Assembly (NCBI GenBank): GCA_903840355.1
Contig: CAIMFJ010000002.1
Span: 62,001-126,000, forward strand
From: an uncultured Opitutia bacterium
Lineage (GTDB): Bacteria > Verrucomicrobiota > Verrucomicrobiia > Opitutales > UBA953
Length of the DNA stretch: 64,000 bases
Reading direction: 5' to 3'
In this document: in pieces, positions 35,485 to 39,454 of the stretch
Layout of the letters: each line of letters starts with the position of its first letter
Position numbering within the stretch: position 1 is the stretch's first letter
Translations under genes and position numbers: made by a program
Notes under the pieces: model-generated
Databases searched by the model: none
What the model saw: only the letters and a program-made list of their open reading frames with translations
What the model was told of the DNA's origin: nothing

Positions 35485-36309
35485 ATGAAGTTCCCCAAAT
35501 TCTGGTCGCTGGCTAAGTCGGGCTCAGGCACGGCCTGGGGCTGGTCGGATACGTCCGCCGAGGAAGCCCAACAAAACGCCCAACAACGGGCCGCCAAAGT
35601 TGCGGATTTACTACGAGCCGGCGGATCACCCGCAGCAAATCAGGGATACTACATCGATCGACCAATCCGCGAACAGGTGCTACGCGAACTCGATGCCTCG
35701 ACCATCCTTTCCCGGAACGCTTATGGTGCAGAAGTGCTGAACACCACCACGGGGTTCTTCATCGACGTCGACTTACCCGCCCCCAAAAATCCCGGGCTGA
35801 TAGCTCGACTCTTGGGTGCCAAACCCGCCGCTAAATCCGAACCTTCACCCGCTGAAATCGCCGCGCTCCACGCCGCCGAAAATTGGGCGAAGGCACACCC
35901 TGGTTGGTCATGGCGCATCTACCGCACGGCGGCCGGCTTACGCCTCCTCGCCACCCACGCGGTCTTTAACTTTGATGATGCTCTAGTAGCCAAGGCTTTC
36001 GAAGCCTTGGGGTCCGACCCGCTTTACCGCCAATTGTGCTACGCTCAACAATGCTTCCGCGCGCGACTCACGCCCAAACCCTGGCGCGTAGGTATCAAAG
36101 CTAAAACGCCACGCTGGCCTTGGATCACGACCCGGGAAGAACAAGCTTTTGGGCAGTGGGATCGCTCTTATCGCCAAGCCTGTCAGGCTTACGCTACTTG
36201 TGAATTAATCCTTACCATCGGTTCATCTGAGATCCATCCCAGCCTGCGCACCCTCGTCGCCGTTCACGACGAAGTCAGTGGTTGCGGTAGTGGTCGTCCG
36301 TTAGCCTAA
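35485..36309 (+). CDS. Conserved protein of unknown function
   Basis: A 274-residue cytoplasmic protein. It resembles uncharacterised proteins in other Gram-negatives that start with a FWSLAKSGSGTAWGWSD-like segment and carry NAYGAEVLNTTTGFFIDVD, WRIYRTAAGLRLLATHAVF and CYAQQCFRARLTPKPWR, ending in YATCELI. The pattern of conserved Trp, Arg, Asp and Cys suggests an enzyme or nucleotide-binding role, but no fold is known to me. An AT-rich stretch (AATAATTTTAAAATAAAAAG) directly before the ATG may be part of its promoter, which would make the mRNA nearly leaderless. Confidence 0.75.
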   Translation: MKFPKFWSLAKSGSGTAWGWSDTSAEEAQQNAQQRAAKVADLLRAGGSPAANQGYYIDRPIREQVLRELDASTILSRNAYGAEVLNTTTGFFIDVDLPAPKNPGLIARLLGAKPAAKSEPSPAEIAALHAAENWAKAHPGWSWRIYRTAAGLRLLATHAVFNFDDALVAKAFEALGSDPLYRQLCYAQQCFRARLTPKPWRVGIKAKTPRWPWITTREEQAFGQWDRSYRQACQAYATCELILTIGSSEIHPSLRTLVAVHDEVSGCGSGRPLA

Positions 36310-36318
36310 ACCATCTAC

Positions 36319-38952
36319 TTACTTTTCGTTCACGGCGAATTCATCGCCGCGACCGCGCGCCTGACTCCAGCGCGCCACGACTTCCTCGATGGGCACGGGG
36401 CGAACCTTCTGCTTTAAATTATAAGCACCGGCTTCTAAACAGGCCTTCAACTGCAGCCACACGGCCGTGTACGAACGGCTAAAGCGCAAGGAACTATCGC
36501 GCAAGAGACTGGAAACGTGACAGCACCCGCCGACTTCGGTGCAAATAAAGCGCCCGGCTTTTAATTCCTCATCCGACGTGGCTCGCAAATCGAAACGAGC
36601 AAAATGCAACGCCGGAAAACGTTTCGCAAAAGCGGTCACGGCGGCAGTTAGGGCAGGCGTCGACAAGTCAGGACGGTGCAAGCAGCGCGCCCCGTGACCG
36701 TAACTTCCCGTGGGATTTAACACCACCGTCTGCCCCGCAGGGATGACGTTATTTAACTCTAAGTCGTGGCACTGTAAAAAGAGTTCCGCACGTGAAACCG
36801 CCACTTCATCGAGCCAAATCAATTCTTCCAAAGTCTGCTCGCCATCGCCCATCACGACCACATCGAGCTTTTGTAAAATCGCCATGATGCGACCATCGTC
36901 TTTGCCCGGGCTGCGACGCCACACGACCTCATACTCTAGGCCGCCGACTTTCTTTTGTAATAAGAAATCTTCTTTTACCAAACGTACAAAGCGTTCGAGT
37001 TGCTCGTCATTCTGGACAAACCGTAGACCAGCCCCATCTTCTGCCACTTCGGGCTTAAAAACTAAGGGGAAGCCGTGACAAGCCGCGAAGGCCTTAGCCT
37101 CTTTCACCCGCTGTTCGATGTCATCATCCTGCGACAATGCCAAGGTTGGCACGCAACGTGAGTCGCGCTGGAACGGACGCAACAAAAGCGATTTCGTATC
37201 CCCAATAAAACCACCAATGGTGCCAAAGGCGGGATTCGCTGAAGCAAACGCCGTAAGACTCAAGTGACGCAAGCTCAGCAACACGATACCGAGACGGATC
37301 GGCATGTATAAGACCCAGGAAGGCCACAGCGAAGGTTGCAAGAAATTGCGGACCTTCATCACGATCTGCCGACGTCCGCGCCAAGTGAGTGCCGGCACCA
37401 GCCAGTGGGTGACGATGTGCAACGCCACGAACAGTCCTAAAATCACCCACAAGGCATTGCTCTTAAAGTGAGCCAAGATTTCCATTCCTTGGGCGCCAAA
37501 ACGATAACCGACATACATCAGCGGCGGCGTCCAAATCAATGCCGCCAATAAAAGCAGCATGCCTAACTTTAAAAAGTTCAGGCGCATGATGCCAGCCGTG
37601 ATAAACGTCGGCACGCGACTGGCGGGCACGAAACGCGAACTGACGACAATCAACATCCCCTTCGGCGTCGAGAACCAGCCGGCCCATTGATTGACTTTGT
37701 GTTCTTGAATAAACCATTTCAGCGGGGCACGCGTGATAGCTTTGCGACCTAAAATGCGTCCCGCCGAATACAGGAAAATATCCCCCATGAAGATGCCCAC
37801 CGTACAAGCGATGCCTGCCGACCAAGCATCTAGAATCCCCACCGAAACCATTAAGCCCGTGGCCAAGCACGTTGGGTCTTCGGCCAAACAGGTACAAACC
37901 AAGATAATCAAAAGTAACATCCAGTAACGCATCCCTTCGGCCTGCGGAATGGGCGGATCTTCGGTGCTGCTAATGGGCGTGACGGTGCCGGTGGTTTCTT
38001 TCCAAAACGTGTGTAAACGGGCAATGACCGCATCCGTGTTTTCAAAGACCGCATCGCGCCCCCCGTTGAGAATTTCTAATTGAGCTTGGGGGACGATTTT
38101 AGCCGTGTAACGGGCGGCTTCTACGGTCGTCATCCAGTCATCTTGACCGTGAAGCAATAACAAGGGCTTCCGCCAGGCTTTGAGGATTTTGCGGTTATCA
38201 GCCAAATCGGTATCAAACACCGTCTTCGCATAGTCCCGATCCCAGGGGAGCAAATCTGCCGCACCAAAATTAGGCGTTAACTGCGAGATGGTCCAAAAGA
38301 AAGCCCCCTGAAAACCGTACACGATTTTATTCACCAACGGATTACCCAAGAATTCAAACTCCTGCACGCCGGGTGCCGAGATCAACGTCAATGACTGCAC
38401 GCGGTCGGGATGCGCCAGCGACAGCTCTAAAGCGGCCACGCCGCCAAAGCCCTGCCCAATGACATGGTATTCTTTAAGACGGTAGTGTTCCAACAAACTG
38501 GCCACGACTTCGGCATTGGCCTCCATCGAGTGACTGGGAACTTCGCCTGGCGAGGTATGGAAGCCCGGCAAAAAGACTTCGACCACCGAGACATTATTTT
38601 CCCGCGCTAAGGCATCACAGAAGGCACTACCTTGATCATCCCAAGGAATGCGGTGGAGGTAGACAATGACGTCCTTGCGAAAAATCGGCAGCGAACCCTC
38701 CATGGCTTCTTCCTGCCCCTCAACCCCATGCAAGTGCGCCCGGACGGGAATGGTGTAATTCTGTCGCACGACTTTATCACCCCGAAAGTCGTAAGCAGGC
38801 ACCTGAATCGGCACGCCTTTCGCCCGTCGTTCAATCGCACTGAAAAAGGGGAACGAAATCGAGAGGACCAGCAGCACGAAATAAATGAGCACGCCCCACC
38901 ATTTGCCGGGTACTCGACCTAAAAGTCGCTTGCGGTCACGGGACGTGGGCAT
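36319..38952 (-). CDS. Three-domain membrane protein: hydrolase-like, DedA/VTT, ATP-grasp-like
   Basis: An 877-residue product. A first helix (about 19-40) is followed by an alpha/beta-hydrolase fold (about 90-320). Its nucleophile elbow reads IGQGFGG, with Gly168 where Ser is expected, and the catalytic His position reads GGRDAVFE, with Arg299. The acid is kept in LLLHGQDDW, so the domain looks catalytically dead. Residues 340-520 form a DedA/VTT membrane domain with GDIFLYSAGRILGR and SSRFVPASRVPTF. Residues 590-860 resemble an ATP-grasp fold: FPLVFKPEVAEDGAG, GGLEYEVVW, NPTGSYGHGARC and FARFDLR...CTEVGG. DedA proteins can move lipids; a lipid- or envelope-related role is inference. Confidence 0.82.
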   Translation of the reverse strand: MPTSRDRKRLLGRVPGKWWGVLIYFVLLVLSISFPFFSAIERRAKGVPIQVPAYDFRGDKVVRQNYTIPVRAHLHGVEGQEEAMEGSLPIFRKDVIVYLHRIPWDDQGSAFCDALARENNVSVVEVFLPGFHTSPGEVPSHSMEANAEVVASLLEHYRLKEYHVIGQGFGGVAALELSLAHPDRVQSLTLISAPGVQEFEFLGNPLVNKIVYGFQGAFFWTISQLTPNFGAADLLPWDRDYAKTVFDTDLADNRKILKAWRKPLLLLHGQDDWMTTVEAARYTAKIVPQAQLEILNGGRDAVFENTDAVIARLHTFWKETTGTVTPISSTEDPPIPQAEGMRYWMLLLIILVCTCLAEDPTCLATGLMVSVGILDAWSAGIACTVGIFMGDIFLYSAGRILGRKAITRAPLKWFIQEHKVNQWAGWFSTPKGMLIVVSSRFVPASRVPTFITAGIMRLNFLKLGMLLLLAALIWTPPLMYVGYRFGAQGMEILAHFKSNALWVILGLFVALHIVTHWLVPALTWRGRRQIVMKVRNFLQPSLWPSWVLYMPIRLGIVLLSLRHLSLTAFASANPAFGTIGGFIGDTKSLLLRPFQRDSRCVPTLALSQDDDIEQRVKEAKAFAACHGFPLVFKPEVAEDGAGLRFVQNDEQLERFVRLVKEDFLLQKKVGGLEYEVVWRRSPGKDDGRIMAILQKLDVVVMGDGEQTLEELIWLDEVAVSRAELFLQCHDLELNNVIPAGQTVVLNPTGSYGHGARCLHRPDLSTPALTAAVTAFAKRFPALHFARFDLRATSDEELKAGRFICTEVGGCCHVSSLLRDSSLRFSRSYTAVWLQLKACLEAGAYNLKQKVRPVPIEEVVARWSQARGRGDEFAVNEK

Positions 38953-39058: not shown

Positions 39059-39454
39059 GTGGAATCAACCAGTCAGGAACTTCTCGGTCTCCGGGTCAAT
39101 ATCGACAAGGTCTTGCATCATTTCGACGAGAACTTCCCGCCCGAGACCCCCCACGCGTTTGTCTATTTCATAACAATCTCTAATGTCTCCCAAGAAACGG
39201 TGCGGCTTTTAGGGAGAAAATGGATTTTGCAGCACCCCCGCACCGGAGAAGTTGAAGTGGTCGAAGGCGATGGTATCGTCGGCCAGACACCTTCCCTCCC
39301 TCCCGGCGAATCTTTTACTTATAATAGTTATCATTTAACGGGTGACACCGTGATCGCTTCTGGTGCCTTCCATGGGGTCACCGCCGACGGCAAGCGTATC
39401 TTCGTCCGCATCCCAAGCTTTAAAATGACGCCGCCCGGCCCTCCCCCTTCTTAA
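39059..39454 (+). CDS. apaG: ApaG domain protein
   Basis: A 131-residue ApaG (DUF525) protein with the fibronectin-like fold: FVYFITISNVSQETVRLLGRKWIL, the glycine-rich GDGIVGQTPSLPPGESFTYNSY and MTPPGPPPS near the end. ApaG proteins bind pyrophosphate or nucleotides; the role is not clear. The start is GTG at 39059; an in-frame stop lies three codons upstream, so no longer product is possible. Its stop overlaps the next start (TAATG). Confidence 0.9.
   Translation: MESTSQELLGLRVNIDKVLHHFDENFPPETPHAFVYFITISNVSQETVRLLGRKWILQHPRTGEVEVVEGDGIVGQTPSLPPGESFTYNSYHLTGDTVIASGAFHGVTADGKRIFVRIPSFKMTPPGPPPS

Follow-up and report, generated by a model that had tools for sequence, protein, structure and literature searches.

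We analysed a stretch of 64,000 nucleotides from an uncultured Opitutia bacterium of the Verrucomicrobiota (contig CAIMFJ010000002.1, positions 62,001 to 126,000), here called the window and numbered from its first letter. At positions 36319-38952 of its minus strand we detected a single uninterrupted open reading frame (ORF) that starts with ATG and encodes a chain of 877 amino acids (aa); the plus strand in the same register contains many stops across this interval. The encoded protein joins a predicted periplasmic pseudo-hydrolase, a VTT/DedA membrane core and a predicted cytosolic pseudo-ATP-grasp domain.

Domains and topology of the window protein

Pfam matched the chain to Abhydrolase_1 (1.4e-13) and to VTT_dom (PF09335, 6e-12), the latter with 46.5 bits and thus above the gathering score of 33.9, and gave weak ATP-grasp matches at the C-terminus (CPSase_L_D2, 1.4e-3). 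The AlphaFold2 model of the full chain, built from a 46-row alignment (45 relatives and the window protein), reached a predicted local distance difference test score (pLDDT) of 84.7 and a predicted template modelling score (pTM) of 0.72. The alpha/beta-hydrolase fold covers about residues 45-321 (37990..38820), and residues 46-324 of the model match an esterase (4uhd) with a Z score of 24.4 and a root-mean-square deviation (rmsd) of 2.6 over 238 aligned residues, and a membrane phospholipase A (6i8w) with a Z score of 22.2; Est816 (5egn) and a phosphatidylethanolamine hydrolase (9l75) are also among the Foldseek matches of the chain. The VTT/DedA membrane domain, matched by Pfam and aligned with Escherichia coli YqjA, occupies residues 340-529 (37366..37935).

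Since the matches listed for the full chain by Foldseek/VIA were all to hydrolases or to comparable proteins covering a single domain, we modelled the C-terminal domain separately, which gave a pLDDT of 89.6 and a pTM of 0.88. Together with its lead segment this domain spans residues 540-872 (36337..37335). Its model matches cyanophycin synthetase (Z 16.8, rmsd 4.6, 266 aligned), followed by LysX/ArgX, glutathione synthetase and RimK, and a profile of the domain retrieved the same kinds of enzymes from the PDB sequences (7ta5, 2.8e-9). The fold is thus alike that of the amino-acid ligase ATP-grasps (cyanophycin synthetase, LysX/ArgX, RimK, GshF), with which the profile of the relatives also has a V-x-GDG-x-ST/TL stretch in common; unlike those ligases, the relatives carry a hydrophobic WP..NP..GG..K lead segment. 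These matches confirm the three-domain fusion that a preliminary description had read from the sequence, and the predicted folds hold for all three parts, the hydrolase and ATP-grasp folds both having been recovered by structure prediction.

A membrane helix is predicted at residues 16-37 (38842..38907) from the AlphaFold2 model and the charge pattern, with five Lys or Arg and no Asp or Glu among the 15 residues that precede the hydrophobic part. Among 82 aligned rows, this pattern places the N-terminus inside in 62 and outside in three, with three ties and 14 rows in which the helix was not found. Because of this Lys/Arg-rich front and of an Arg pair at residues 527-528, which follows the membrane core and is invariant in the full-length alignment, the hydrolase is predicted to lie outside the cytoplasm and the ATP-grasp domain inside.

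Over the full chain, and in the same hydrolase-VTT-ATP-grasp order, the window protein shares 29-33% identity with the other 45 sequences in the full-length alignment. A scan of a genome collection detected 290 related stretches, and the best 80, hereafter the named loci, fall into eight phylum-level groups, i.e., Verrucomicrobiota, Acidobacteriota, Planctomycetota, Gemmatimonadota, Balneolota/Rhodothermia, Calditrichota, KSB1 and Desulfobacterota-type bacteria; the idea of a fusion unique to the window was consequently rejected. Full-length frames of at least 825 aa are present in 80/80 named loci.

Replaced residues, descent and selection

In the hydrolase domain, Gly168 (38449..38451) replaces the nucleophile Ser, Arg299 (38056..38058) replaces the catalytic His, and Arg101 (38650..38652) replaces the Gly of the HG motif of the oxyanion hole, while the catalytic acid Asp272 (38137..38139) is kept. 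The window protein therefore lacks the nucleophile-acid-His triad of the esterases and lipases that it resembles in fold. Among 81 aligned relatives (the 80 named loci and L041), Ser is found in 76, and Asp, His and Gly101 in all 81. Conservation in the window's genus was counted over the 30 best-scoring loci and three distant ones (L031, L032 and L066), out of 52 genus genomes with the gene. Gly168 is present in 33/33 of these rows, Asp272 in 30/30 of the best-scoring ones, Arg101 in 30/30 and in 32/33 overall (one distant member has Ala101), and Arg299 in 29/30 and 29/33, respectively. The three distant members have Gly168 and Asp272, as well as Gly808 and both Cys residues described below, and keep His299. 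Across 21 rows of the window's family, Gly168 occurs in 21, Asp272 in 20, Arg101 in 13 and Arg299 in 11. A sequencing error or frameshift at the nucleophile elbow was ruled out, Gly168 being present in every genus row. Judging by sequence position, the new Arg residues (101 and 299) would lie in the hydrolase pocket.

The metal-binding E-x-N motif of the ATP-grasp domain is degenerate in the window protein and reads E806-V-G808 (36529..36537). Outside the family, both Glu806 and the Asn of this motif occur in 98/98 tree rows (94 distinct), and the Asn in 0/16 family tree rows; it is gone in 21/21 family rows, where Gly, Ser, Lys or Glu stands in its place, and Glu806 is lost in 7/21. Gly808 is found in 33/33 genus rows, as is each member of the genus-wide pair Cys810-Cys811 (36520..36525). 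Ligation and cutting steps in the window protein are very unlikely. The preliminary description had proposed a dead hydrolase domain with a kept acid, which these residues bear out, and a binding rather than cutting role, which is probable with the nucleophile and the His lost; it had missed Arg101 and the N808G replacement. Its further suggestion of a coupled ATP-using ligase is not supported for the window protein, given the loss of the E-x-N Asn, and suits the cross-phylum relatives, in which both sites are kept, often beside OlsB/OlsA-like genes.

In a tree of the VTT and ATP-grasp columns (114 rows, 110 distinct; L046 and L076 are identical over these columns), the window's family forms one side of a branch with a Shimodaira-Hasegawa-like approximate likelihood-ratio test (SH-aLRT) value of 100, and 16/16 family rows are without Ser168 and Asn808. 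The tree was obtained by a quick search without a mixture model. In it the family is represented by 16 of its 42 loci and the remainder of the order by 18 of 28, next to all 80 named loci; the same-order loci left out were L041, L043, L044, L049, L051, L061 (whose gene is divided between two ORFs) and L062-L065 (which have only the ATP-grasp). Because the residues are intact elsewhere in the order and in other phyla, their loss is most likely a derived state of the window's family, the tree itself being unrooted. Relatives with intact Ser and His, which the preliminary description took as a sign against its own proposal, do occur outside the family; inside it, Gly168 is universal in the 21 rows examined and His299 persists in part of them.

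The three domains have not been retained equally. We trained this comparison on 76 of the 81 aligned relatives, with five Balneolota rows set apart, and applied it to 21 of the 42 family loci. Of the positions conserved in at least 95% of the 76 relatives, the family rows retain a mean of 57% for the hydrolase, 88% for the VTT domain and 60% for the ATP-grasp domain, against 96%, 99.5% and 97% in eight same-order control rows, and 80%, 100% and 94% in the five Balneolota rows. Given this unequal retention, the transport core is preserved and both enzyme ends are remodelled in the window's family. Of 435 pairs within the genus, the 14 closest show purifying selection on all three domains, with a Nei-Gojobori ratio of nonsynonymous to synonymous substitution rates (dN/dS) of 0.05-0.13 for the hydrolase, 0.025-0.10 for the VTT domain and 0.02-0.09 for the ATP-grasp domain.

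Besides, altered hydrolase domains were observed in other lineages. Gly168 also occurs, in a separate clade, in five Balneolota loci of Fodinibius/Aliifodinibius (L113, L117, L127, L133 and L138), where the Asp, the His and the ATP-grasp motif are intact and OlsB/OlsA-like genes are kept; the nucleophile appears to have been lost separately in the Balneolota. Within the window's order, L053, L054 and L057 have a degenerate hydrolase, and L055 a shorter degenerate one, all four with E-x-N kept. L056 and L058-L060 are without a recognisable hydrolase domain and consist of VTT and ATP-grasp domains with intact E-x-N, a pattern that may reflect a stepwise loss of the hydrolase.

Gene neighbourhood in the relatives and in the window's family

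The relatives' gene is frequently preceded by genes resembling those of ornithine-lipid synthesis. In the fullest case (L107), genes for an OlsB-like GNAT protein, an OlsA-like acyltransferase, DinB and TANGO2 lie upstream of the gene, on the same strand and nearly gapless. Profile searches of all ORFs in the 80 named loci, with profiles built from members that these loci themselves supplied, detected DinB in 52, the OlsB-like GNAT in 51, the OlsA-like acyltransferase in 42 and TANGO2 in 39. Either an OlsB-like or an OlsA-like gene is present in 55 loci, both in 38, and any of the four neighbours in 75; 52 of the 80 loci have more than 5 kb of upstream DNA, and 49 of these carry at least one of the four. 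The OlsB/OlsA-like genes lie a few genes upstream on the same strand across several phyla. The best NCBIfam matches of the pair in L082 are OlsB (1.8e-36) and OlsA (3.2e-40); because both are below the model cut-offs, we call these proteins OlsB/OlsA-like rather than proven OlsB and OlsA. In 20 genomes chosen, not randomly, from the 80, PF13444 is present in 20/20 and as a single copy in 16, and an OlsB-like profile match lies inside the locus in 16/20, including 12/16 of the single-copy genomes. The loci of Cerasicoccus frondis (L076) and of the Planctomycetes Pla86 (L097) and Pla163 (L146) combine the intact form of the protein with an OlsB-like gene; C. frondis, assigned by NCBI to the Puniceicoccales (Opitutia, Verrucomicrobiota), is of the same order as the window's family. 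The lipid link made by the preliminary description is supported. Purified human TANGO2 is reported to bind acyl-coenzyme A (PMC11867700), which by analogy would fit a lipid operon. A ferric-reductase/Rieske fusion protein was also observed upstream of the aminolipid genes in 22 of the 80 loci (L104:1455-3807; also L095, L100, L119, L134 and L136), flanked in L104 by two proteins without a Pfam or NCBIfam match.

In the window's order, outside its family, 30 of 104 genomes carry the gene, whether as the full form, as VTT-ATP-grasp or as the ATP-grasp only (E at most 1.3e-19). PF13444 is found in 27/30 genomes with the gene and 18/74 without it (Fisher p 5e-10), TANGO2 in 27/30 and 5/74, and DinB in 27/30 and 6/74, respectively. 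The PF13444 gene is in these bacteria mostly a fused, OlsF-like frame of 600 aa located elsewhere in the genome. This fused gene adjoins the ATP-grasp gene in G080 (L065) and G105 (L060), and in four genomes without the three-domain gene (G101, contigs C95 and C138; G118, C121; G130, C143; G146, C88) DinB or TANGO2 is found on the same contig no more than about 1.5 kb away from an OlsF-like PF13444 gene of about 600-690 aa; on these grounds, the aminolipid link seems to hold in the order too, more loosely.

Related ATP-grasp domains were further detected in 39 of 198 genomes of the phylum of Fodinibius; the frame is 812-905 aa long in 18 of them and 342-397 aa long in 21. In the 15 Bacteroidota-phylum loci examined out of the 21 short-form matches (L167-L181), DinB was found in 11 and TANGO2 in eight. 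The association of DinB, TANGO2 and ATP-grasp looks like the core of the system, to which the hydrolase, the VTT domain and OlsB/OlsA would have been added in other lineages. LysE-, DoxX- and YHS-like proteins recur by eye in L167-L181, with weak Pfam matches below the cut-off in L174, on which alone Pfam was run. In L176 (5938-10280) the standalone ATP-grasp gene lies beside ORFs that resemble, by eye, a flavin adenine dinucleotide (FAD) oxidoreductase and a ketosynthase.

The window's family, on the other hand, has parted from this neighbourhood. The window gene stands alone between a convergent gene ending at 36309 and a divergent ApaG-domain gene starting at 39059, and an operon in the window was rejected. 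None of the four neighbours was found in 12 family loci, three of which are short contigs (4.8, 7.2 and 7.9 kb). As the Pfam DinB models miss some of the DinB proteins concerned here, absence from the family was retested with purpose-built profiles of the operon's own proteins, and neither TANGO2 nor DinB was detected in any of the 79 family genomes. All eight genomes of one genus of the family (g2) keep the three-domain gene without any PF13444; because of this, the protein works without any OlsB-like enzyme in g2 at least.

Proposed function and its alternatives

The VTT domain relates the window protein to DedA/VTT proteins such as UptA and E. coli YqjA and YghB; unlike these, it is fused to two further domains. 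PopT, which the preliminary description cited as a DedA member, belongs instead to the DUF368 family. DedA and DUF368, and UptA-type and PopT-type transporters, are named as separate kinds in passages of two papers (PMC12893004, PMC11474028). Asp359, Arg440 and Arg446 of the window protein, present in 21/21 family rows, align with D51, R130 and R136 of YqjA, which are described as essential in E. coli (PMC10846249). These conserved residues point to transport or binding as a plausible activity of the window protein.

Considering these findings, we propose that the window protein is a DedA/VTT-type lipid transporter or binder with a pseudo-hydrolase on its periplasmic face and a pseudo-ATP-grasp domain on its cytoplasmic face, derived from a three-domain protein of wide distribution that acts alongside OlsB/OlsA-like enzymes in aminolipid synthesis; we give this reading roughly even chances of being correct. 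The intact relatives combine, in one chain encoded next to OlsB/OlsA-like genes, a ligase-like part in the cytosol, a transporter core and a hydrolase in the periplasm, an arrangement that suggests that a lipid is ligated, transferred and trimmed. In the ancestral form, OlsB/OlsA-like enzymes would make an N-acyl-amino-acid lipid, to which the ATP-grasp domain would couple an amino acid or another amine on the cytoplasmic side; the DedA core would carry the product across the membrane, and the periplasmic hydrolase would trim or transacylate it. The two catalytic ends would then have lost key residues in the window's family and the operon partners would have left, with the transport core kept; the hydrolase pocket with its new Arg would most likely bind and gate the lipid headgroup, and the ATP-grasp domain would most likely bind a nucleotide or a partner.

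More tentatively, and with a probability that we put at about one in three, a single protein that spans the inner membrane in eight phylum-level groups might link ATP-driven ligation of a lipid on the inside, DedA-type transport, and hydrolysis or transacylation of the lipid on the outside, within an OlsB-OlsA-DinB-TANGO2 operon, and thereby build, move and finish a new aminolipid, with the window's clade as a catalytically silent transporter or sensor and a separate loss of the nucleophile in the Balneolota. Neither the three-domain family nor its operon seems to have been described in the literature searched, as the preliminary description had supposed of the layout: with most subscription journals and preprints outside the search, none of the Ols pathways described there included the three-domain protein, and no VTT/DedA-ATP-grasp fusion was found. 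We know of no described route by which aminolipids of the ornithine type pass the inner membrane. With its gene a few positions behind OlsB/OlsA-like genes, and with ligase-like and hydrolase-like domains of its own, the DedA-type protein is a concrete candidate for that step. The window's clade is also a natural experiment, in which the same chain has both enzyme sites altered and is under strong selection, so that transport and chemistry could be told apart.

Several observations weigh against the proposal of a silent transporter derived from an aminolipid system. His299 is kept in 10/21 family rows, and Lys633, Glu673, Lys695 and Asp788 of the ATP-grasp domain in 21/21, so that ATP binding or weak activity may persist. 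Over all genus pairs with synonymous rates (dS) below 1.5, the median dN/dS (0.22, 0.20 and 0.12 for hydrolase, VTT and ATP-grasp) exceeds the values of the closest pairs, with dS near saturation and without a neutral control gene. YqjA E39 falls in an alignment gap and has no counterpart in the window protein, and VTT membership does not fix the substrate. As regards the lipid, the Fisher test on PF13444 in same-order genomes ignores shared ancestry, and in the 23 same-order loci an OlsB-like gene adjoins only in two and an OlsA-like gene in one (the G080 locus is outside these 23). No OlsB/OlsA was found in the 15 Bacteroidota-phylum loci with ATP-grasp alone, and the substrate need not be an ornithine-type lipid. 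Conversely to g2, PF13444 is still present elsewhere in the window genome, as a 601-aa PlsC-GNAT (OlsF-like) fusion on another contig, and in 46 of 55 genus genomes, where a remaining aminolipid link is possible.

In an alternative that we regard as rather unlikely, the OlsB/OlsA link reflects co-regulation only, e.g., under phosphate limitation, the ATP-grasp domain serves a DinB-TANGO2 module with another substrate, and the DedA core moves polyprenyl phosphate like UptA. The DinB-TANGO2-ATP-grasp association is common to Bacteroidota-phylum loci without OlsB/OlsA, DinB and TANGO2 adjoin the gene in 21/23 same-order loci and an OlsB-like gene in only two, and UptA is the best NCBIfam VTT match of the window VTT domain (1.1e-13, far below the cut-off). 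The recurrence of OlsB/OlsA-like genes just upstream on the same strand in several phyla, and the position inside the locus of the only PF13444 gene in 12/16 single-copy genomes, argue against co-regulation alone. The kept ATP-grasp residues, together with the near-invariance of the new Arg and Cys residues in the genus and with a median dN that is lowest for the ATP-grasp domain (0.17 versus 0.20 and 0.29), would also suit a changed rather than lost catalysis, by which Arg101/Arg299, along with Cys810-Cys811 and an altered ATP-grasp loop, carry out a different reaction. This seems improbable to us: glycine cannot act as a nucleophile, the His is gone in 29/33 genus rows, and the variety of residues that took the place of the E-x-N Asn, along with the loss of Glu806 in 7/21 family rows, is unlike one conserved new metal site.

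That the gene is merely decaying, as the many formerly conserved positions lost in both enzyme domains might suggest, is scarcely credible. The gene is retained in 74/79 family genomes, with no match in G010 and G063 and weak partial matches in G012, G023 and G069, several genomes being incomplete; no stops were found inside the listed full-length family matches, and the closest pairs have dN/dS values of 0.02-0.13.

Two further genes complete the setting of the window gene and its genome. The convergent neighbour is an ORF of 274 aa on the plus strand (35485-36309), without a Pfam match at E 0.01. The gene for the 601-aa PlsC-GNAT protein lies about 11 kb from the only other VTT match in the window genome (G000 C5:359471-359770, L153; C5:370751-371143, L071).

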